From Methanobacteriota archaeon (GTDB lineage Archaea > Thermoplasmatota > E2 > DHVEG-1): 45,660 bases of DNA. Position numbers and translations under genes: made by a program. The notes below the pieces were generated by a model that made no database searches, was not told the DNA's origin, and saw only the letters and a list, made by a program, of their open reading frames with translations. The stretch lies in assembly GCA_026394495.1 (NCBI GenBank), contig JAPKYE010000066.1:1-45660 (forward strand), given 5' to 3'. Position 1 is the stretch's first letter, and every line of letters begins with the position of its first letter. This document shows positions 1-34,775 of this stretch, in pieces.

Positions 1-175
1 GACAGAGGGATATTAGGAGGGGATCCTCTCTTGTGTTGACATTGAATCTGACCACAGGTGCGCAGGAATGGCAGAAACCCCTGGACAAAGCAGTATTTGG
101 GTATAATGGGACGATGCACCGTCTCACGACAGATCACGGGGACCTCTGTAAGTCCGAAACATAAAATATATGCAG
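1..175 (+). repeat. Cassette 5' block, copy 1
   Basis: First of five copies of a 5' block that opens each Hint/toxin-antitoxin cassette. It covers the end of the spacer (GGATCCTCTC), a GTG start at 33 and the Hint segment up to the SPKHK motif. Copies 1-4 are nearly identical in bases until about this motif, then diverge abruptly. The window begins inside the spacer, so more cassettes or the full-length gene may lie upstream. Relative to the other copies this one lacks two bases near 146-150, which shifts the Hint frame. Confidence 0.9.
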
Positions 176-200
176 CTCTTGAAGATGATGGACGTTCTGG

Positions 201-614
201 TCAGAATAATTTCTTTAACTCGTGTGTTGAAAATACCACTATTTTTGATTGTTGTTTAAAACGCTTTTCATTTGACCAGATGGGAACACCTTGTTTCAAC
301 GACAGCGCAAAATATGCAGCGTCCTTCGGATGCCCGGGCAGCACCTTCAACGCACGCGGCATGAATTTGTTATATTCGGATTTCGGTACCACATCAATCA
401 GTGAATATAGCAGGATGCAGGATGTCAGGAATTCTTCTTCTTCGATGCCACTGTATATGCAGACCTTCTTCTTCAACGAGAACAATTCATCGAGTAAAAA
501 ATCCGGCGCATACAGTCTTACTCCTGACACGTATGCGTGCTTGATGAAATTCCTTGTAAATGATTGCGATTTAAAAAAGGAAAAGATGATTGATGCATCA
601 ACGATAAACTCCAT
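201..614 (-). CDS. PIN-domain toxin (VapC-like), cassette 1
   Basis: A 137-residue PIN-domain protein, a family of Mg-dependent ribonucleases that act as the toxin of VapBC pairs. Acidic positions expected of the PIN site are D6 (VDAS), E43 (DELF), D98 (PGHPKDAAYFALSL) and E116, where Asp is usual (WSNEK). It lies downstream of its likely antitoxin with a gap of 9 bases, in the antitoxin-first order normal for VapBC. Both genes run against the Hint frame that contains them. The open frame and intact acidic residues suggest it is functional although the surrounding Hint frame is broken. RNA target unknown. Confidence 0.82.
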   Translation of the reverse strand: MEFIVDASIIFSFFKSQSFTRNFIKHAYVSGVRLYAPDFLLDELFSLKKKVCIYSGIEEEEFLTSCILLYSLIDVVPKSEYNKFMPRALKVLPGHPKDAAYFALSLKQGVPIWSNEKRFKQQSKIVVFSTHELKKLF

Positions 615-623
615 TTGCTATCC

Positions 624-860
624 TCAGAGCAAACCGTGTCGTTTCGCCACGCGTTTATTCAGCTCATCTGCCAGTAATTGCGCCTGCTCCTCGGACAATT
701 TGCTTTTCTGCAATATGGCATCAACACGTTCAAAAAGCAGCAATGTCCGCAGTTTCTCTTCAACTGCTTCTCTGAACAATACCTTCATCTCCGGTTTTTT
801 CAGTTCTTTACCCGCTAGTTTCAGCAGTCCTTCAGATATTTCTATTTTTATTTCACCCAT
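624..860 (-). CDS. VapB-like antitoxin, cassette 1
   Basis: Small antitoxin-like protein of about 78 residues that starts with a short beta-strand sequence (MGEIKIEIS) and is otherwise helical and charged, ending AKRHGLL. The frame is open upstream to 947, but I choose the ATG at 860 because a TATA-like box (TTTAAATA read on the minus strand, 895-902) lies 35-42 bases before it, the same distance as in cassette 3. The C-terminal segment (KSKLSEEQAQLLADELNKRVAKR) resembles that of the cassette 3 and 4 antitoxins (KSKLSEKKAAEISGKINKSLAKR; KSTFTEKDADEMSDKVKRSMLKR), so these three belong to one family. It probably binds and neutralises the adjoining PIN protein and represses the pair. Confidence 0.75.
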   Translation of the reverse strand: MGEIKIEISEGLLKLAGKELKKPEMKVLFREAVEEKLRTLLLFERVDAILQKSKLSEEQAQLLADELNKRVAKRHGLL

Positions 861-892
861 GGTCACACCAAGCTCTGAAAAGAGTTCATCGC

Positions 893-903
893 GGTATTTA
901 AAC
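893..903 (-). promoter_or_regulatory. TATA box of cassette 1 toxin-antitoxin pair
   Basis: On the minus strand this reads GTTTAAATACC, a good archaeal TATA box, 35-42 bases before the antitoxin ATG at 860. It lies inside the Hint core, so the toxin-antitoxin pair carries its own promoter and does not depend on transcription of the host gene. Confidence 0.6.
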
Positions 904-1039
904 ATTTCTGAGCCGTTGTCTGCAAAATTTAGTCTTGTCCCCATCACCGAAGAATGGACTGATGTCCAGCAATTTAGATCAAAACGGCACGATCATACCT
1001 GTTTCATCTCTTCAAAAAGAGGCATATGATGGAATGATC

Positions 1040-1390
1040 TACGACGTTGACGTCCCCAACGACATCGTACTCGTCCGTCGTGGGAACGGCTCAGCGTTCT
1101 GGTCTGGAAACAGCAACACCCAGCTACAACAATTTCAGCCTTCAATATAATCGAAGTGGTGACATAAGCTGGACAACGATAAACACAACCTACGACATCA
1201 TCATCGCTGCACTCATTAGCGATGAATACAAGACGTTTGATTTGGAAATATTTATGGCAACCACCTCATCAACCTCAGACCCGTTAGCATTAACGGTCAC
1301 CTTTAAATCGGGGGGTTAAGTAACCTTCCCTGTAAAGAAATAGGTATGCAATTCAGGTGTTATCATCTATTTTTTTGGATTAGCGATATA
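1040..1390 (+). repeat. Cassette 3' block, copy 1
   Basis: Conserved block starting at YDVDVPND of Hint-C and covering the terminal WSGN-S, the C-extein-like sequence and the spacer with its conserved TATCATCTATTTTTTTGG run. Nearly identical to 2473-2821; the block at 5051-5401 matches at both ends but differs more in the C-extein part. Confidence 0.85.
1112..1319 (+). pseudogene. C-extein-like fragment, cassette 1
   Basis: After Hint-C the sequence encodes SYNNFSLQYNRSGDISW..TFDLEIFMATTSSTSDPLALTVTFKS, ending with TAA at 1317-1319. It aligns by eye with the C-terminal half of the exported proteins at 7705-8244 and 9130-9645 (AYSLYTSGL..NKGFDLCLNMGSSLSSNFTLQTTTIYL). It is in the +1 frame relative to the Hint-C block, so plain translation from Hint would end soon after WSGNS-NTQLQQFQPSI at 1150. 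No start codon of its own can be supported. It is therefore the tail of a surface protein separated from its N-terminal half. Confidence 0.7.
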
Positions 1391-1394
1391 ATAG

Positions 1395-1568
1395 AAGGAA
1401 ATTATGGGGGGGATCATCTCTTGTGTTGACATTGAATCTGACCACAGGTGCGCAGGAATGGCAGAAACCATTGGACCGTGCGGTATTCAATCAGAATGGA
1501 ACCATGCACCGTATCACAACCGAAAAAGGGGATCTGCTGGTCAGTCCGAAACATAAGATATATGCAAC
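1395..1568 (+). repeat. Cassette 5' block, copy 2
   Basis: Second copy of the 5' block, with GTG at 1423 and SPKHK near 1542-1556. The bases before the GTG (GGAAATTATGGGGGG) differ from copies 1 and 3 (TATTAGGAGGGG) but match copy 4, so two spacer sub-types alternate. Confidence 0.88.
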
Positions 1569-1608
1569 AAATAATGGGAATACGAACGAAAATTCTGTAG
1601 GCAGTTCT

Positions 1609-2061
1609 TCAGGTGATATCTCTCAAAAGCTTGGCTGGTACATCAACCTTAGCAGCAGCCTCGTACATCTTCCGATCATCAGTAATGAGAGTAGAGTTAG
1701 TCAGCTTGGCGCAGGCAATGAAAATAGTGTCAAAACCACTGCTTCTTGTCCGTGCACCTATCCGTATCGCCTCGTTCAGAAGAAAGATGTCGTAGAAAAC
1801 GTTTCCATGGTCTCTGACATAGTCAGATGCTTGGATCCCTCGTTGATCCTTCCCAGTAAGCCTTGCTGTTACCGAGGCTATTTCAATGAGACAGACTGCT
1901 GGGATGTTCATCACAGTTTTTCTATCTTCGATCTCTTGGATAATGTCTCTAGCTTTCAAATGCAAACGAAGCTGTTCGCGATAGAGAGAATCCTTCTTTC
2001 GTCTCATTGGCGGAATAATTCCCTTTATCAAAACGGTAGTATCCAAGGTGACAGCGCTCAT
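1609..2061 (-). CDS. vapC: PIN-domain toxin (VapC), cassette 2
   Basis: A 150-residue PIN protein of a different sub-family from the toxins in cassettes 1, 3 and 4. The classic acidic set is present: D7 (TLDTTVLI), E60 (LIEI), D111 (GFDTIFIACAKL) and D128/D129 (LITDDRKM). This is the most canonical VapC in the array, expected to be a site-specific Mg-dependent endoribonuclease. Its ATG overlaps the stop of the upstream antitoxin by four bases (ATGA), showing translational coupling. In this cassette the + strand Hint frame is codon-aligned with the antisense of this gene. Confidence 0.9.
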   Translation of the reverse strand: MSAVTLDTTVLIKGIIPPMRRKKDSLYREQLRLHLKARDIIQEIEDRKTVMNIPAVCLIEIASVTARLTGKDQRGIQASDYVRDHGNVFYDIFLLNEAIRIGARTRSSGFDTIFIACAKLTNSTLITDDRKMYEAAAKVDVPAKLLRDIT

Positions 2062-2258
2062 GATGAATACTTCCCATCGCGCATCCTTCGGATAAGCTCA
2101 GTCGAATCCTCATCAGAAATACGATCCTTGGCCATGAGCTTATTCAAATCAGACAATGATCGTGATTTTTTCTGTCTAGAAAACTTCAACTCGTCAATAA
2201 GTGCATGTAACTCACGATCAACGAGTTCTAATCTTTTCAGGATTACAGCGCCTTCCAT
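2058..2258 (-). CDS. Antitoxin of cassette 2
   Basis: Small antitoxin of 66 residues starting MEGAVILKRLELVD, rich in charged helical sequence (ELHALIDELKFSRQKKSRSLSDLNKLMAKDRISDEDSTELIRRMRDGKYSS). A GTG three codons upstream (2267) is possible, but the ATG at 2258 sits about 31-41 bases after the TATA-like box at 2289-2299 and fits better. The gene overlaps the VapC start by four bases. Sequence differs from the other cassette antitoxins, matching the different PIN sub-family. Confidence 0.75.
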   Translation of the reverse strand: MEGAVILKRLELVDRELHALIDELKFSRQKKSRSLSDLNKLMAKDRISDEDSTELIRRMRDGKYSS

Positions 2259-2288
2259 AGGAATCACAGATGATAATGAGACTGAAGC

Positions 2289-2299
2289 AATATATAAGG
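2289..2299 (-). promoter_or_regulatory. TATA box of cassette 2 toxin-antitoxin pair
   Basis: Minus strand CCTTATATATT, about 31-41 bases before the antitoxin ATG at 2258 and inside the Hint core. Confidence 0.5.
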
Positions 2300-2472
2300 A
2301 TTTCCCCCTTCAGGCAAGAACAGAAACCGACACCCCTGTCTATTCGTTAACACCGCTAACAGAAGTGTATGATCGTATCGAACAACAAAACGAATCTTAC
2401 TCATTCAAAGACGAAGAAGGAAACGCTATCCCTATTTCCTCCATCACACAAGAACAATACGATGGACTGATC

Positions 2473-2821
2473 TACGACGTTGACGTCCCTAACGACATCG
2501 TACTCGTCCGTCGTGGGAACGGCTCAGCGTTCTGATCTGAAAACAGCAACACCCAGCTACAACAATTTCAGCCTTCAATATAATCGAAGTGATGGCACAA
2601 GCTGGACAACGATAAACACAACCTACGACATCTTCATCGCTGCACTCACAAGCGATGAATACAAGACGTTTGATTTGGAGATATTTATGGCAACCACCTC
2701 ATCAACCTCAGACCCGTTAGCAGTAACTCTTACGTTTAAATCGGTGGCAAAGTAAGAGCCCCTGTAAAAAAACAAGTATGTAATTCAGGTGTTATCATCT
2801 ATTTTTTTGGGTTAACGACAT
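2473..2821 (+). repeat. Cassette 3' block, copy 2
   Basis: Second copy of the conserved 3' block, almost base-identical to 1040-1390 and including the spacer motif TTCAGGTGTTATCATCTA. Confidence 0.85.
2545..2755 (+). pseudogene. C-extein-like fragment, cassette 2
   Basis: Same tail as in cassette 1 (YNNFSLQYNRSDGTSW..TFDLEIFMATTSSTSDPLAVTLTFKSVAK), ending with TAA at 2753-2755. Again it lies in the +1 frame relative to the Hint-C block. No independent start can be supported. Confidence 0.7.
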
Positions 2822-2998
2822 GACAGAGGGATATTAGGAGGGGATCCTCTCTTGTGTTGACATTGAATCTGACCACAGGTGCGCAGGAATGGCAGAAACC
2901 ATTGGACCGTGCGGTATTCGATCAGAACGGGACGATGTACCGGATCATAACCGAACAAGGGGATAAGTTGGTCAGCCCGAAGCATAAAGTGTATGTTC
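2818..2998 (+). repeat. Cassette 5' block, copy 3
   Basis: Third copy; its spacer half (GACAGAGGGATATTAGGAGGGGATCC, from 2822) is the same as positions 1-26. GTG at 2854 and SPKHK near 2974-2988. Confidence 0.88.
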
Positions 2999-3011
2999 AG
3001 ATTAATTCTTC

Positions 3012-3443
3012 TCAGGGTTTATACAACATCATCATGAACAATTCCTTAGGTGAAAACACGTCGACAGGGGCTCGTTCTTTTAACCGTTTATCTCCAGAAA
3101 AAATAGGTGCAGATTTCAATTCTAAGGAAAGAGCTAGATATGGGACGTCTTTATCTGATCTGGAGAGAATCCGACGTGCTTCCGGAAGTCTCTCTGAAAA
3201 GACAGATGAAGGGACAATGCTTATCTCTTCAAGTAAAAAACCTAATACTTCATTGAATTCCTCATGGGATAGCTTTGTTTCTTGTCGCAACTCTTCTTTA
3301 TGGTTTTCAAGTTCGACAAGTAAAAATTCAGGGGCTATAAACTCGTATCTTCCAACAATGCTGTTAAACATAAACACATCGAATGCGACACCTTTTGTGA
3401 GAAGTGCGGAAACGACAACATTCACATCAACAACGATGAACAT
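3012..3443 (-). CDS. PIN-domain toxin (VapC-like), cassette 3
   Basis: A 143-residue PIN protein with D6 (VVDVNVV), E44 (LLVELENHKEEL), an acidic pair at D97/D99 (SRSDKDVPYLALSLEL) and D118 (FSGDKRL), the expected catalytic set for a PIN ribonuclease toxin. Related by eye to the toxins of cassettes 1 and 4 (shared LL.E..NHK.EL and KD...ALSL). It begins three bases after the end of its antitoxin. Intact although the host Hint frame has lost its 3' end. Confidence 0.85.
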   Translation of the reverse strand: MFIVVDVNVVVSALLTKGVAFDVFMFNSIVGRYEFIAPEFLLVELENHKEELRQETKLSHEEFNEVLGFLLEEISIVPSSVFSERLPEARRILSRSDKDVPYLALSLELKSAPIFSGDKRLKERAPVDVFSPKELFMMMLYKP

Positions 3444-3446
3444 GGT

Positions 3447-3671
3447 TTATAACTCTTCGTATCGTTTTGCTAACGATTTATTGATTTTCCCTGAAATCTC
3501 TGCAGCTTTCTTCTCTGAAAGCTTGGATTTTGATACAATGCGTTTCAACCGTGCCAATCGTTCAAATTTTTCGTTCACCACTCTATTGGCCAACAAAGAA
3601 AGTTCAACATCGGAAAAACCACGAAGTTTCCTGTGCAATTCATCAGAGATAACAACCTTTACTTCAACCAT
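3447..3671 (-). CDS. VapB-like antitoxin, cassette 3
   Basis: A 74-residue antitoxin beginning MVEVKVVISDELHRKLRGFSD, a short strand followed by a helix as in ribbon-helix-helix or related VapB DNA-binding domains, then a charged C-terminal helix (KSKLSEKKAAEISGKINKSLAKRYEEL) that probably contacts the toxin. TATA-like box at 3706-3713, 35-42 bases upstream of the ATG. Confidence 0.8.
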   Translation of the reverse strand: MVEVKVVISDELHRKLRGFSDVELSLLANRVVNEKFERLARLKRIVSKSKLSEKKAAEISGKINKSLAKRYEEL

Positions 3672-3704
3672 ATCATCTTCACATACTAATGATGATTTTA
3701 CTCA

Positions 3705-3714
3705 GTATTTAAAC
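3705..3714 (-). promoter_or_regulatory. TATA box of cassette 3 toxin-antitoxin pair
   Basis: Minus strand GTTTAAATAC, 35-42 bases before the antitoxin ATG at 3671, exactly the spacing seen in cassette 1. Confidence 0.6.
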
Positions 3715-3852
3715 CTTTCTCACGGGACGTTAATGCAGATTACAACAACAAATGAACTCTACGAAAAAGGAGAACAACTCTTTTTCCTTGATGACCAAGG
3801 CAATGAGATACCTGTTCAATCAATCACACTTTTTGGATTAGCGATATAATAG

Positions 3853-4023
3853 AGGGAAATTATGGGGGGGATCCTCTCTTGTGTTGACATTGAATCTGAC
3901 CACAGGTGCGCAGGAATGGCAGAGACCGTTGGATCGTGCGGTATTCTATCAGAACGGGACGATGTACCGTATCACAACCGAACAAGGAGACCTGCTGGTC
4001 AGCCCAAAACACAAAGTATATGT
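3853..4023 (+). repeat. Cassette 5' block, copy 4
   Basis: Fourth copy, with the same spacer sub-type as copy 2 (GGAAATTATGGGGGG). GTG at 3881 and SPKHK near 4001-4015. Confidence 0.88.
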
Positions 4024-5206
4024 TGCGAATACGAGTTATTTGGATTCTTTACCGAGTTCTTTGCAGAGTTGTTTGGTTGATATCCCCACGCCAATATCAA
4101 AAAGCAGGTTTTCATACGTCCAAATCTTACAATTTTTACAAAGGCTAAGTGCAACGAATTCAACATCTTTCAAGTGTGATCCGAGGAGTGTTTTTGCTTT
4201 TGGTATAAACGATATGTATTCACGCTTTGGCACAAAGGTGATAATGTCGAAAACAAGAAATGCGAGTTCGTTAAACGCTTTCGCGGATAATGATGATTTC
4301 CGCATCAGTTCTTTTTTATGGTTGTTAAACTCCTTGAGTAACGTTTCAGGTCCAAATATAAGCAAAGATTCATTAAAAACGATGCTGAGTATATCACCTT
4401 GTGAGATGAGGATGCGGAAGAATACGTTAGAGTCGAGAACGACTTCCATTTACAGCAGTCCTTCTTTTTGTAATCGTTTCAGCATTGATCGTTTGACCTT
4501 ATCTGACATTTCATCCGCATCTTTCTCCGTGAATGTTGATTTGGAGACGATGCGTAACGCTTTTTTTAACGCTTTATCGCGTGAAATTTTTTCCGATGCT
4601 TCTGCTTGTACGAGTTTTGACCAGTTCACCCAAGAGAACCGTTTCATCTCTGCTTTGATTTCATCTGGGATGGTGAACGTAACCGACGACATTCACAGCT
4701 CACCTCGTTTCACCATCTGCTCGAATCTCCGTAATTGCTCGACTTTACGGACAATGATTCTTCGAAACACCTCTGCCCAGTTTACTTCAGGGTATTCTGA
4801 TAATTTCTTCTTAAGTTCCGATGGGATGGATAATGTTACCGTTGCCATGTTACCCTCCTTACATAATTCTGTAAATATACATAATTATGTTGAAGTATTT
4901 AATTCTTTTGTTCTACCATATTATTCGTTAACACCAGTAACTACTATCTATAATGAAATACCACAAGGAAAAACAATCTATTTCTTAGATGCCCAAGGCA
5001 CCCCGATATCGGTGTCATCAATTCAAAAAGAATCGTACGATGGACCGATTTACGACGTTGACGTCCCCAACGACATCGTCCTTGTCAGACGAGGAAACGA
5101 CTCAGCGTTCTGGTCTGGAAACAGCGACACCCAGCTACAACAATTTCAGCCTCCGGTACATGCGCGACGGGGACAGCAGCTGGACCAACATCACCACATC
5201 CTATGA
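3881..5206 (+). CDS. Hint (intein-like) domain, cassette 4, complete core
   Basis: The only cassette whose Hint frame is uninterrupted to the terminal Asn. It runs from GTG 3881 through TGAQEWQRP, GDLLVSPKHKVYV, a stop-free insert antisense to a toxin and two antitoxins, then YSLTPVTTIYN, FLDAQGTPISVSSIQKESYDG, YDVDVPND, RRGN and WSGN (Asn at 5120-5122) followed by Ser. It then continues out of register with the extein and stops at 5206 (DTQLQQFQPPVHARRGQQLDQ..). Hint domains catalyse protein self-cleavage or splicing. Block A with the nucleophilic Cys is missing, so at most C-terminal cleavage seems possible, unless this segment is joined to a complete 5' part elsewhere. Penultimate Gly instead of His is unusual. 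Whether it is translated from the GTG is unproven. Confidence 0.65.
   Translation: MLTLNLTTGAQEWQRPLDRAVFYQNGTMYRITTEQGDLLVSPKHKVYVANTSYLDSLPSSLQSCLVDIPTPISKSRFSYVQILQFLQRLSATNSTSFKCDPRSVFAFGINDMYSRFGTKVIMSKTRNASSLNAFADNDDFRISSFLWLLNSLSNVSGPNISKDSLKTMLSISPCEMRMRKNTLESRTTSIYSSPSFCNRFSIDRLTLSDISSASFSVNVDLETMRNAFFNALSREIFSDASACTSFDQFTQENRFISALISSGMVNVTDDIHSSPRFTICSNLRNCSTLRTMILRNTSAQFTSGYSDNFFLSSDGMDNVTVAMLPSLHNSVNIHNYVEVFNSFVLPYYSLTPVTTIYNEIPQGKTIYFLDAQGTPISVSSIQKESYDGPIYDVDVPNDIVLVRRGNDSAFWSGNSDTQLQQFQPPVHARRGQQLDQHHHIL
4036..4449 (-). CDS. PIN-domain toxin (VapC-like), cassette 4
   Basis: A 137-residue PIN protein: D6 (VLDSNVFF), E40 (LLKEFNNHKKEL), D95 (HLKDVEFVALSL) and a weaker last acidic site near E113 (WTYENLL). 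Same sub-family as the cassette 1 and 3 toxins but strongly diverged in sequence. It directly abuts its antitoxin (4450). Replacement of the usual SxDxR-type motif by TYEN may weaken catalysis. Confidence 0.8.
   Translation of the reverse strand: MEVVLDSNVFFRILISQGDILSIVFNESLLIFGPETLLKEFNNHKKELMRKSSLSAKAFNELAFLVFDIITFVPKREYISFIPKAKTLLGSHLKDVEFVALSLCKNCKIWTYENLLFDIGVGISTKQLCKELGKESK
4450..4692 (-). CDS. VapB-like antitoxin A, cassette 4
   Basis: An 80-residue antitoxin: MSSVTFTIPDEIKAEMKRFSWVNWSKLVQ is a strand-helix-helix opening typical of VapB/ribbon-helix-helix antitoxins, followed by a charged helical tail ending KRLQKEGLL. Its ATG overlaps the TGA region of a second, shorter antitoxin immediately upstream (TGAATG), so three genes are likely co-transcribed. 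Confidence 0.82.
   Translation of the reverse strand: MSSVTFTIPDEIKAEMKRFSWVNWSKLVQAEASEKISRDKALKKALRIVSKSTFTEKDADEMSDKVKRSMLKRLQKEGLL
4693..4848 (-). CDS. Second, short VapB-like antitoxin, cassette 4
   Basis: A 51-residue frame, MATVTLSIPSELKKKLSEYP..VNWAEVFRRIIVRKVEQLRRFEQMVKRGEL. Its first 30 residues parallel those of the next gene (VTFTIPDEIKAEMKRFSWVNWSKLVQ), so it is a second antitoxin of the same kind lacking most of the toxin-binding tail. A strong Shine-Dalgarno (AAGGAGGGT) lies just before the ATG at 4848. It is the first gene of a three-gene unit with antitoxin A and the PIN toxin. It may provide DNA binding or be left from a nested insertion. Confidence 0.8.
   Translation of the reverse strand: MATVTLSIPSELKKKLSEYPEVNWAEVFRRIIVRKVEQLRRFEQMVKRGEL
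4861..4903 (-). promoter_or_regulatory. Promoter and palindromic operator of cassette 4 toxin-antitoxin unit
   Basis: The perfect 12-base palindrome ACATAATTATGT lies at 4879-4890, with a matching half-site ACATAATT at 4861-4868, 18 bases away. A TATA-like box (GAATTAAATA on the minus strand) is at 4896-4903. The palindrome sits between the TATA box and the likely transcription start, a position expected for antitoxin autorepression. Confidence 0.6.
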
Positions 5207-5401
5207 ATCGTTTGTTACTGGTCTTACAGCCGCGGACTGGAAAACCTTCGATCTAAACCTTCTGCTTGCCACCACCTCATCCACGGGTGATCCCTTTGCG
5301 ATTACGATTACATTTAAATCGGTGGCAAAGTAAGAGCTCCTGTAAAAAAACAAGTATGTAATTCAGGTGTTATCATCTATTTTTTTGGGTTAGCGACATA
5401 A
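5051..5401 (+). repeat. Cassette 3' block, copy 4
   Basis: 3' block of cassette 4. The Hint-C end and the spacer match the other copies; the C-extein portion is a diverged version. Cassette 3 has no equivalent because it is deleted there. Confidence 0.8.
5123..5333 (+). pseudogene. C-extein-like fragment, cassette 4
   Basis: Encodes YNNFSLRYMRDGDSSWTN..TGLTAADWKTFDLNLLLATTSSTGDPFAITITFKSVAK, the most diverged of the three C-extein tails, ending TAA at 5331-5333. It is in +1 frame relative to the Hint-C block, with the change falling around the ACACCCAGC sequence shared by all copies. The tail corresponds to the C-terminal half of the exported proteins at 7705 and 9130. Confidence 0.7.
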
Positions 5402-5442
5402 CGAGGGCGATTAGGGGTGGGATCCTCTCTTGTGTTGACATT
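5396..5442 (+). repeat. Truncated fifth cassette 5' block (array end)
   Basis: Spacer plus GGGATCCTCTCTTGTGTTGACATT, after which the sequence stops matching. This marks the right-hand end of the array; the first residues of the frame (GSSLVLT) run on into unrelated sequence before the PKD gene. Confidence 0.8.
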
Positions 5443-7704: not shown

Positions 7705-8244
7705 ATGGGATGCAAAAAAAAAGTAATTGTAGATTGGGCAGATGATACCAAGAACATACTCATGGTTTTTTTAGTGATGTCGATGTGGATTAGCACTTTA
7801 ACGCCACTCGTACTAGCAGATGAAACATCCATCAGTATCACCTTTGACCCTAATGGAACAGTAGACATCGATGTCACACCAAGGAGCTCAGCCTTTGGCG
7901 CTATTCTCATTGGATCATGGGTAAATACCACAGGAAGCACATTCACGCTGTATAATAATGGAACCGTAGCGATGAACACACAGATAAAATCCAATGCAAC
8001 AACTGATTCAACTCAATTGACTCTTGACACAAACGGCAACCCCGGAGCAGACGCCTATTCATTGTATACCAGCGGTCTCGATACTAACGGGTACATCACC
8101 GCTGTATATGGGGGAGATTTCGACACGGCAATCGCCGCAGGTGGAAATAAAGGATTTGACCTCTGTCTTAATATGGGAAGCTCGCTATCATCAAATTTCA
8201 CCTTACAGACAACAACCATTTATCTACAAGGAACTTCAATATAA
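7705..8244 (+). CDS. Exported protein A, uninterrupted homologue of the Hint-split protein
   Basis: A 179-residue protein with an N-terminal hydrophobic signal or anchor (ILMVFLVMSMWISTLTPLVLA) and a mature beta-rich, Thr/Asn/Gly-rich domain starting ADETSISITFDPNGTVDIDVTP. Its C-terminal half (AYSLYTSGLDTNG..FDLCLNMGSSLSSNFTLQTTTIYL) aligns by eye with the C-extein pieces in the 1-5333 array, so it shows the unsplit form of that family. The insertion point would fall near NGNPGA/DAYSLY. The pattern of tandem-assembled, secreted beta proteins would fit TasA/archaeal bundling-pilin-like subunits, but that is a guess. Confidence 0.75.
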   Translation: MGCKKKVIVDWADDTKNILMVFLVMSMWISTLTPLVLADETSISITFDPNGTVDIDVTPRSSAFGAILIGSWVNTTGSTFTLYNNGTVAMNTQIKSNATTDSTQLTLDTNGNPGADAYSLYTSGLDTNGYITAVYGGDFDTAIAAGGNKGFDLCLNMGSSLSSNFTLQTTTIYLQGTSI

Positions 8245-9129: not shown

Positions 9130-9645
9130 ATGGAATGGAAAAAAACAACGCAGAATATAGTGAATATTGTTCTTGTAATTGGAACATGGAGTATGGTATT
9201 TATACCTTTAGTATTAGCAGATGAAACTTCCATTAGTATCACCTTTGATCCCGATGGTACAGTATACATTGATGTCACACCAAAGAGCCGAGCCTTTGGC
9301 GCCATTCTCATTGGAGCATGGGTAAATACCACAGGAAGCACCTTTACGCTGTTCAATAATGGAACCATGGCGATGAATGTCCAGTTCAAATCCAATGCAA
9401 CAACTGATTCAACTCAATTGACTCTTGACACAGACGGCAACCCCGGAGCAGACTCCTATTCATTGTATACCGACGGCCTCGATAATGACGGGTACATTAC
9501 CGCTGCATATGCAGGAGATTTCGACATGGCACTCGCTGAAAGTGGAAATAAAGGATTTGACCTCTGTCTCAATATGGGAAGCTCGCTATCATCAAATTTC
9601 ACGGTGCAGACGACATCTATCTATCTTCTCGGTAGTATCAGCTGA
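9130..9645 (+). CDS. Exported protein A', paralogue of 7705
   Basis: A 171-residue near-duplicate of the 7705 product: signal/anchor (NIVLVIGTWSMVFIPLVLA) then ADETSISITFDPDGTVYIDVTPKSRAFGAILIGAWVNTTGSTFTL and the C-terminal FDLCLNMGSSLSSNFTVQTTSIYLLG. Most differences are conservative. Together with 7705 and the pair 8384/12488 it shows duplication of a two-gene A-B unit. As at 7705, no Hint domain interrupts it. A TATA-like box (GTTAAAAAC, near 9040) lies about 90 bases upstream. Confidence 0.78.
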   Translation: MEWKKTTQNIVNIVLVIGTWSMVFIPLVLADETSISITFDPDGTVYIDVTPKSRAFGAILIGAWVNTTGSTFTLFNNGTMAMNVQFKSNATTDSTQLTLDTDGNPGADSYSLYTDGLDNDGYITAAYAGDFDMALAESGNKGFDLCLNMGSSLSSNFTVQTTSIYLLGSIS

Positions 9646-33794: not shown

Positions 33795-34775
33795 TTGTCT
33801 GTGGTGAATCAGATGCAGATATCCTGCCCCTATTGCAAAGCAAACACAGTGATAAAGAAAGGAAAAAGAAAAACAACATATGCTGCAGAACAACGATACC
33901 ACTGCAAAAACTGCGGACGACGATTTATCACCAAAGACATGAAACATACAACATATCCACCCCAGGTAATCTATGCTACGTTAAACATCTATGATCTGGG
34001 ATACAGCCTATCTGAGGTTTCACGACAGATCAACAAAACATACAAGATTCATACATCAAAAAGCACGATTCACACCTGGATACAAAAGTTCCAAGAGTTC
34101 TGTCCGATTGCTCCAACAAGACAACGTTTTTCCCACTATGATACAGTATTGTTTAAAACACGATTTGCACACGAAAACCTGGATTACGAGTTCATGTACC
34201 ATCGATACAAACTCGATGTTCTCACACGAGAACGTTTCCCTGGCCTATTCCACTACATCACCCGCTTTGAACACGGATGCCCCGATGTATTCTTCGAAAC
34301 AGGAGAACGATGTTCCCACCCTCATGTTGAGACCCAGGTGGTGCCTCAAAAGAAGATGAACCTTGCATGCCGGATGGCTCGATTTGCTTGTCATACAACA
34401 TAGGAGAATCGGGAGAGACATAAAAAAGTTGAGATGTTTCTATTGATAAACGACACCGCGACAATTGCATGTGAGGTGCCGGTGTGGTACTGGGAAAAAA
34501 ACCTTGACACCGGAATCACCGGGCATATCGATCTTCTTCAGGTGCGAAACAACCTCGTGTATATCCTGGATTACAAACCAGATGCCACAAAAGAAAAGAA
34601 AGCACCCAGCCAACTCTATCACTATGCAACTGCTTTGTCGTTTCGAACAAAGATTCCCCTCGAGCATATACGGTGCACTTGGTTTGACGAGCAGGCGTAT
34701 TATGAATACAAACCTGCAGAAGCCAGAATCACCCTCAAAAAAATTAACACAATAGAATACACAGACGACAAATAA
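33795..34775 (+). pseudogene. Zinc-ribbon/HTH protein with PD-(D/E)XK nuclease domain, in-frame TAG
   Basis: One frame holds: a zinc ribbon (CPYCKANTVIKKG..YHCKNCGRRF, like transposase N-termini), a helix-turn-helix (YSLSEVSRQINKTYKIHTSKSTIHTWIQKF), a middle region (LFKTRFAHENLDYEFMYHRYK..), and a PD-(D/E)XK nuclease core (TGITGHIDLLQVRNNLVYILDYKPDA, then QLYHYATALSF). A single TAG at 34401-34403 splits it between FACHTT and ENRERHKKVEMFLLINDTATIACEVPVWYWEK; the frame before and after is the same. The likely start is TTG 33795, six bases after a perfect GGAGGTGA. It may be a nonsense mutation (TGG to TAG), read through, or encode pyrrolysine. Probable role: a mobile or defence-type DNA endonuclease. 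Confidence 0.75.

Follow-up and report, generated by a model that had tools for sequence, protein, structure and literature searches.

Antisense cargo, mostly toxin–antitoxin genes, in the endonuclease slot of an intein lineage

The internal slot of inteins usually holds a homing endonuclease. The stretch of DNA analysed here (45,660 nucleotides of contig JAPKYE010000066.1 from a Methanobacteriota archaeon, assembly GCA_026394495.1; hereafter the window) carries at positions 20-5333 four tandem units in which Hint/intein sequence flanks toxin–antitoxin (TA) genes of the opposite strand, and complete genes of the same organisation occur elsewhere. We consider it probable that these elements represent an intein lineage whose endonuclease slot has been taken over by antisense cargo, mostly type II TA genes (PIN/VapB-like and YafQ-like), and which persists through addiction. 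All intein endonuclease domains are stated to lie at one conserved site (PMC6801210), and how inteins manage to persist after the end of homing is still debated (reviewed in PMC7765530).

Three complete copies, designated C106, L031 and L100, combine Cys1, a Hint domain, antisense cargo and a terminal GN-S in one unbroken frame, with host frames of 721, 1195 and 1257 amino acids (aa), respectively. All three end in WSGN followed by a serine at position +1, and their hosts are large secreted surface proteins of the DUF2341/LamG kind. C106 belongs to the same genome as the window. Its gene encodes a signal-like N-terminus, a DUF2341 domain (2.5e-10), block A with Cys1 (CYDEKTQILTLDGWKYFSDLTDDDVVLTFN...) and the motif SPKHN, beyond which lie an antisense PIN_2 toxin gene and its antitoxin gene; the intein terminates in ...YDVDVPNDIVLVRRGDGSAFWSGN, then S and the C-extein. 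L031 (QNDO01000188.1), the one relative obtained from 84,980 species genomes scanned, comes from a Guaymas Basin metagenome-assembled genome (MAG) named Candidatus Hydrothermota (G390). Its frame, open at both ends, encodes LamG exteins separated by an intein that bears two TA pairs in antisense orientation. The first pair, located in the block A loop and therefore away from the conserved site of PMC6801210, comprises a YafQ-family toxin (TIGR00053 2.5e-11, below the curated cut-off) and a VapB-like antitoxin, and the second, located in the usual endonuclease slot, a PIN_2 toxin and an antitoxin. L100, from another contig of the same MAG, is a complete intein (CYDEETEILTPDGWKYF...WSGN-S) whose cargo consists of two small membrane open reading frames (ORFs), possibly an undescribed TA or holin-like pair; the 72-aa ORF weakly matches phrog_32088, a family of unknown function. 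The L100 and L031 contigs share a 28-base overlap that keeps the reading frame, so that both are probably parts of one gene encoding a giant surface protein. The G390 bin may be wrong, because its extein was not found in the 147 other genomes searched from its assigned phylum and its TATA boxes suggest an archaeal source. The main coordinates of these copies are:

L017:4756-6918, C106 intein gene, same genome as the window, 721 aa, open at the contig end
L031:146-850, second cargo site of L031, in the block A loop, where endonucleases have not been reported
L100:1486-1872, minus strand, pair of small membrane ORFs (55 and 72 aa), TATA box at -29

A preliminary description of the window had proposed that TA pairs occupy the endonuclease slot of intein-like Hint domains. 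The presence of an N-extein, Cys1, Hint, antisense cargo and C-extein in C106, L031 and L100 supports this proposal more strongly than the sequence of the window allowed, and its assignment of the flanks to the Hint fold is borne out by profile, alignment and fold searches. Indeed, the Pfam Intein_splicing profile aligns with two window cassettes, weakly but across the insert, and the L100 Hint domain passes the TIGR01445 intein_Nterm model (43.5 bits for a curated cut-off of 24.5). Once freed of its insert, the C106 Hint domain can be aligned with Vibrio phage terminase inteins over residues 1-142 (E 2e-8); its first half matches the NrdA inteins of Salmonella phages at 44%. The AlphaFold2 model of the L031 intein, computed from an alignment with three window cassettes and six viral mini-inteins, predicts a confident Hint core (147 residues with a predicted local distance difference test score, pLDDT, >=90, at 1-20, ~230-305 and 540-600) and two antisense-encoded inserts that mostly score below 50. 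A fold search of the PDB with this model returned as nearest structures, almost without exception, bacterial-intein-like (BIL) domains, which come first, and inteins (best E 7.7e-3, probability 1.00); interruption of the alignment by the inserts accounts for the modest E-values.

The class to which these inteins belong is characterized by the signature CYD..TE(V/I)LT..GWK ... VRRNGKPVWSGN followed by S, T or C, common to archaeal MCM, ThyX and NrdD inteins and to many viral inteins. Viral members amount to 373 relatives, the best 80 of which were read. LAGLIDADG_3 was found in the slot of 41 of the 47 viral members scanned, and only 11 of these 47 reach 1e-3 with Pfam Intein_splicing; weak Pfam scores are therefore normal in this class. 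A terminal Gly-Asn, unusual among inteins at large, is the rule in the class. No endonuclease (LAGLIDADG or HNH) was matched in the slot by a profile search of the sense products of the cargo-bearing inteins.

These features also bear on the question of whether the Hint domains splice at all. They could instead cleave, as in a bacterial-intein-like processing of surface proteins, the TA insertion being incidental. The nature of the hosts, large secreted DUF2341/LamG proteins, would suit such a function, as would the first rank of BIL domains in the fold search and the penultimate Gly and SPxH motif, which differ from those of canonical inteins. However, the GN-S/T/C ending is the rule in a class that occupies MCM, ThyX, NrdD and terminase genes needing splicing, a +1 Ser is found in every complete copy, and the LamG exteins of L031 are continuous once joined, which makes cleavage quite improbable in our view. 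Indeed, the joined sequence (LVLALNFNNNSAIGE followed by SNTKAVDISKYGNNGTI) is gap-free at the junction when compared with the uninterrupted LamG proteins L112 and L113, which is what precise removal by splicing requires. Pfam scoring of the joined exteins had been tried and was no better than that of the split ones, since Pfam leaves the first LamG strand unmodelled; the uninterrupted homologues were used instead.

The host frame is free of stops opposite every cargo gene. Across the seven full inserts (7/7), it contains 0 stops in 1635 codons, for 237 in the other two frames. When the cargo genes were redrawn with synonymous codons according to the codon usage of the window genes, the joint P of an open host frame was ~1e-13, the genes being treated as independent. 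A control set of 27 PIN_2 genes from related genomes, apparently free-standing, gave a mean of 2.1 stops in the wobble-to-wobble antisense phase (phase 1), which was fully open in 7 of them, and none (0/27) was open in the codon-to-codon phase (phase 0), the phase in which the cassette 2 toxin and the L031 YafQ gene lie and are still open. The difference between the toxins of the inteins (7/7 open) and the controls (7/27) is significant (Fisher p 0.0006), and all cargo modules are antisense (8/8, p 0.008). Antisense openness alone was rejected as proof of selection, this being too strong a claim when 7/27 control genes are open in the same phase; the controls lower, but do not remove, the case that the open frame exceeds chance. 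Cargo in the sense orientation would bring its own stops into the host frame, and antisense cargo in a stop-poor phase could be purged of them by wobble changes.

Spurious genes on the minus strand, a spurious ORF on the plus strand or an assembly artefact might be invoked, given that such elements were met at the edges of contigs (C133 start, C106 end) and in MAG contigs of short length. Yet it is found in independent contigs from two genomes, the PIN_2 matches reach 1e-22 with catalytic residues, and the three long host frames are unbroken, with flanks of the same frame matching inteins. Such an origin is hardly credible.

The array of the window comprises four cassettes (~20-1320, 1410-2755, 2841-3830 and 3868-5333), with Hint sequence on the plus strand and TA genes on the minus strand. 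The plus strand of a cassette reads GGATCCTCTCTTGTGTTGACATT, then SLVLTLNLTTGAQEWQ...SPKHK, the interruption, and (Y/F)SL.P.T...YDVDVPNDIVLVRR..FWSGN-S. Cassettes 1, 2 and 4 close with a small secreted protein's tail, which is not in the Hint frame. The features of the array are:

20..43, plus strand, left junction of cassette 1, 3'-untranslated-region-like GGATCCTCTCTTGTGTTGACATT fused to a truncated intein, repeated at each cassette start
32..175, plus strand, cassette 1 Hint N-flank (TGAQEWQ ... SPKHK), internal frameshift, without Cys1/block A
201..614, minus strand, cassette 1 toxin, 137 aa, Pfam PIN_2 2e-14, catalytic D/E/D present
624..947, minus strand, cassette 1 antitoxin ORF, with the ATG at 860 as its probable start, homologous to the C106 and cassette 3 antitoxins
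895..902, minus strand, cassette 1 TATA box TTTAAATA, 42 nucleotides (nt) upstream of the antitoxin start
968..1117, plus strand, cassette 1 Hint C-flank (YDVDVPND, WSGN-S), frame shifted relative to the insert
1101..1319, plus strand, cassette 1 C-extein remnant (secreted-protein tail), frame differing from Hint
1423..1575, plus strand, cassette 2 Hint N-flank
1609..2061, minus strand, cassette 2 toxin, 150 aa, different PIN family (PIN PF01850 3.3e-8)
2058..2267, minus strand, cassette 2 antitoxin, 69 aa, assigned by position and 4-nt overlap with the toxin, without family match
2291..2296, minus strand, cassette 2 TATA-like TATATA, at -29
2338..2550, plus strand, cassette 2 Hint C-flank, TGA replacing the Trp of WSGN
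2537..2755, plus strand, cassette 2 C-extein remnant
2854..3003, plus strand, cassette 3 Hint N-flank
3012..3443, minus strand, cassette 3 toxin, 143 aa, PIN_2 2.6e-22
3447..3671, minus strand, cassette 3 antitoxin, 74 aa, homologous to free-standing antitoxins
3706..3713, minus strand, cassette 3 TATA box TTTAAATA, at -42
3709..3825, plus strand, remnant of the cassette 3 Hint C-flank after deletion of blocks F and G
3881..4030, plus strand, cassette 4 Hint N-flank
4036..4449, minus strand, cassette 4 toxin, 137 aa, PIN_2 4e-22
4450..4692, minus strand, cassette 4 antitoxin, 80 aa, VapB-like (NF050799 8.7e-6)
4693..4848, minus strand, cassette 4 second antitoxin-like gene, 51 aa, VapB-like (NF050799 4.9e-9)
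4896..4902, minus strand, cassette 4 TATA box TTAAATA, at -54; Shine-Dalgarno GGAGGG precedes the ATG
4916..5125, plus strand, cassette 4 Hint C-flank as far as WSGN-S, sharing the frame of the N-flank
5112..5333, plus strand, cassette 4 C-extein remnant
5419..5442, plus strand, right junction of the array, the same 24 bases followed by non-intein DNA

The four Hint-block cassettes of the preliminary description, each with a PIN-toxin/antitoxin pair and a TATA box on the opposite strand, are thus recovered, and so is the loss of blocks F and G in cassette 3; on other points that description has to be corrected. All four cassettes start downstream of block A and lack Cys1, so that they cannot splice. 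Furthermore, cassette 1 has frameshifts in both flanks, and cassette 2, where the FWSGN-S end is damaged, shows a TGA in place of the Trp. WSGN-S is present in cassettes 1 and 4, and only cassette 4 reads in frame from the N-flank to WSGN-S across the antisense TA genes (441-aa ORF). Downstream of WSGN-S, the C-extein continues in a different frame. The four cassettes are decayed intein copies. Their TA genes are intact, whereas their intein parts lack block A and have suffered frameshifts, a stop and a deletion, which fits selection acting on the TA genes.

On the minus strand of every interruption, a toxin gene has on its upstream side one antitoxin gene (two in cassette 4), which adjoins or overlaps it. 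The catalytic columns D6, E43 and D98 are invariant in the toxin alignment. All four toxins match PIN or PIN_2, and some antitoxins, including both of cassette 4, match VapB profiles below the cut-off; the antitoxin of cassette 2 has no family match. The TATA-like boxes, at -29 to -54, make it likely that the TA pairs have their own promoters of the archaeal TATA type. The flanks are 80-88% (N-flank) and 76-86% (C-flank) identical in DNA between cassettes, and the C-extein remnants 63-88% identical in protein sequence. Two secreted-protein genes of the window (7705-8244 and 9130-9645), 75% identical to each other, are of the kind from which these tails may come; no significant match of the tails to either gene was found.

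The 24-base GGATCCTCTCTTGTGTTGACATT recurs at 1410-1433 (with one base difference, in cassette 2), 2841-2864, 3868-3891 and, past the array, 5419-5442. A 13-nt near-match at the array junction, TTGTG(T/C)TGACATT, is common to the intein and the 3' flank. We infer that the array arose by tandem duplication from a complete gene located upstream and cut off by the contig start.

In a tree built from 27 Hint cores, the four rows with cargo form one clade (100/99), placed among endonuclease-bearing inteins and mini-inteins. The DNA of the copies is 75-88% identical in N-flanks and 67-86% in C-flanks, whereas their PIN_2 toxins share only 26-39% of residues and cassette 2 carries another PIN family; the cargo has therefore been exchanged between close relatives. 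This suggests a single origin of the lineage followed by cargo exchange. The cassette 4 toxin is 52-56% identical to free-standing PINs of related genomes (L077, L088, L082), and its whole three-gene module has free-standing homologues in two of them (L077 and L088; 50-56% identity). In these free-standing PIN/VapB modules (genomes G019 and G032), the antisense frame is fully open for 298 aa, and no recognisable host gene surrounds them.

As to recurrence, which the preliminary description had sought in other lineages, the arrangement is present in a second genome, G390, but in only 2 of ~1270 genomes searched and as one clade. Among the other Hint/intein matches of the window's own genome, none of those read carries TA genes; one of them, on contig C134, is a canonical Hint of the VHN type at the end of a large surface-protein gene. 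A partial second Hint C-terminal copy (L066:4204-4446) lies right after this gene, so that the genome contains a further partial tandem Hint copy besides the array. The nearest Hints of G014, G019, G043 and G393 are inteins of housekeeping genes (NrdD, PurD, RfbB) without TA genes, and those of G192 and G250 are MCM inteins with LAGLIDADG-sized inserts. No TA-bearing relative was seen in intein-query scans of the viral collection, within the best 80 of the 373 class relatives, and plasmids and phages gave ordinary intein matches only, among the matches listed. One viral contig, L206 (IMGVR_UViG_3300013099_000018), has an ordinary endonuclease-type intein of the class beside a DUF2341-like surface-protein gene, the kind of protein that hosts C106. 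In agreement with the preliminary description, which knew of no element of this form, the open-licence literature searched yielded no description of inteins that contain TA genes.

Addiction in place of homing fits these data and could operate as follows. The intein would still splice, removing the antisense-encoded, predicted disordered stretch and leaving the host protein unharmed. The TA pair, transcribed from its own promoter within the intein, would make loss of the DNA costly, and the element would thereby persist without homing. Recombination between conserved Hint flanks would bring in new cargo. Recombination at the 13-nt near-match between 3' flank and intein may have started the tandem array, which would be retained because loss of any TA would be punished. 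A bolder formulation, which we advance tentatively, is that of a distinct self-splicing element that has abandoned homing for addiction, its slot being a receptor for interchangeable antisense TA cargo and both strands coding for selected proteins.

The main rival explanation is that TA pairs, as homing endonucleases did earlier, settle in a slot silenced by splicing for their own persistence or for phage defence, without any benefit to the intein; two genes that each end in a stop could then be accommodated in an open host frame in the antisense orientation only. All eight modules (8/8) are indeed antisense, most of them in the stop-poor wobble-to-wobble phase, the opposite strand is already open over 298 aa in the free-standing homologues of the cassette 4 module, the TA genes outlast the intein in the array, and the cargo of L100 is not a known TA. 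By itself, however, such hitchhiking leaves unexplained one long-lived cargo-bearing lineage that retains splicing residues, and we regard it as rather unlikely. Sequence alone cannot tell it from addiction.

Several observations weigh against an addictive, splicing intein. The penultimate His is a Gly, although this Gly is common to the whole class (MCM, ThyX, viral), and block B of every copy is SPxH (SPKH/SPEH) instead of TxxH, the His being conserved and a Ser standing at the Thr position. The TA genes of the window persist although their inteins cannot splice, and the complete copy L100 carries membrane ORFs rather than a known TA. C106 runs to the contig edge, where extein continuity cannot be read, the G390 contigs are only 3.6-3.8 kb long, with an uncertain host, and phase-1 openness is partly intrinsic to PIN_2 genes (7/27 controls). 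To these are added the narrow distribution given above and the fact that we infer splicing, toxicity and addiction from sequence.

Like the LAGLIDADG inteins of the class (MCM, NrdD and viral hosts), these elements have a Hint domain, Cys1, a terminal Gly-Asn, a +1 Ser/Thr/Cys and an insertion between blocks B and F. Unlike them, they carry two or three antisense genes rather than an in-frame endonuclease, reside in surface proteins and, in L031, have an extra insertion in the block A loop. The mini-inteins of the class (MCM of G305, ThyX of G070) likewise consist of a Hint core without endonuclease, but their linker is short, whereas the corresponding stretch of the present elements, encoded opposite the cargo genes, is 140-294 residues long. 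The cargo shares its gene order, families (PIN_2/PIN with VapB-like; YafQ/RelE-like), own promoter and catalytic residues with free-standing archaeal type II TA systems; here, it is embedded antisense in an intein gene, and the opposite strand is kept open. Polymorphic-toxin systems include Hint domains, orphan toxin–immunity cassettes and tandem silent copies downstream of a complete gene. The likeness lies in the Hint domain near toxin genes and the tandem copies; the toxin is encoded here on the opposite strand and is no part of the secreted protein, and such a reading was rejected on account of the strand.

If addiction does replace homing, an addiction module in place of a nuclease would be a second and directly testable way to retain a splicing element, and the selfish element may have traded self-copying for deadly loss. 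The intein slot would not be reserved for endonucleases, and L031 would reveal a second Hint site tolerating large insertions. It is also unusual in itself, and measurable, that two functional coding units overlap so extensively in antisense. Elsewhere in the window, the gene at 33795-34403 encodes a zinc-ribbon protein that resembles the N-terminus of a transposase.

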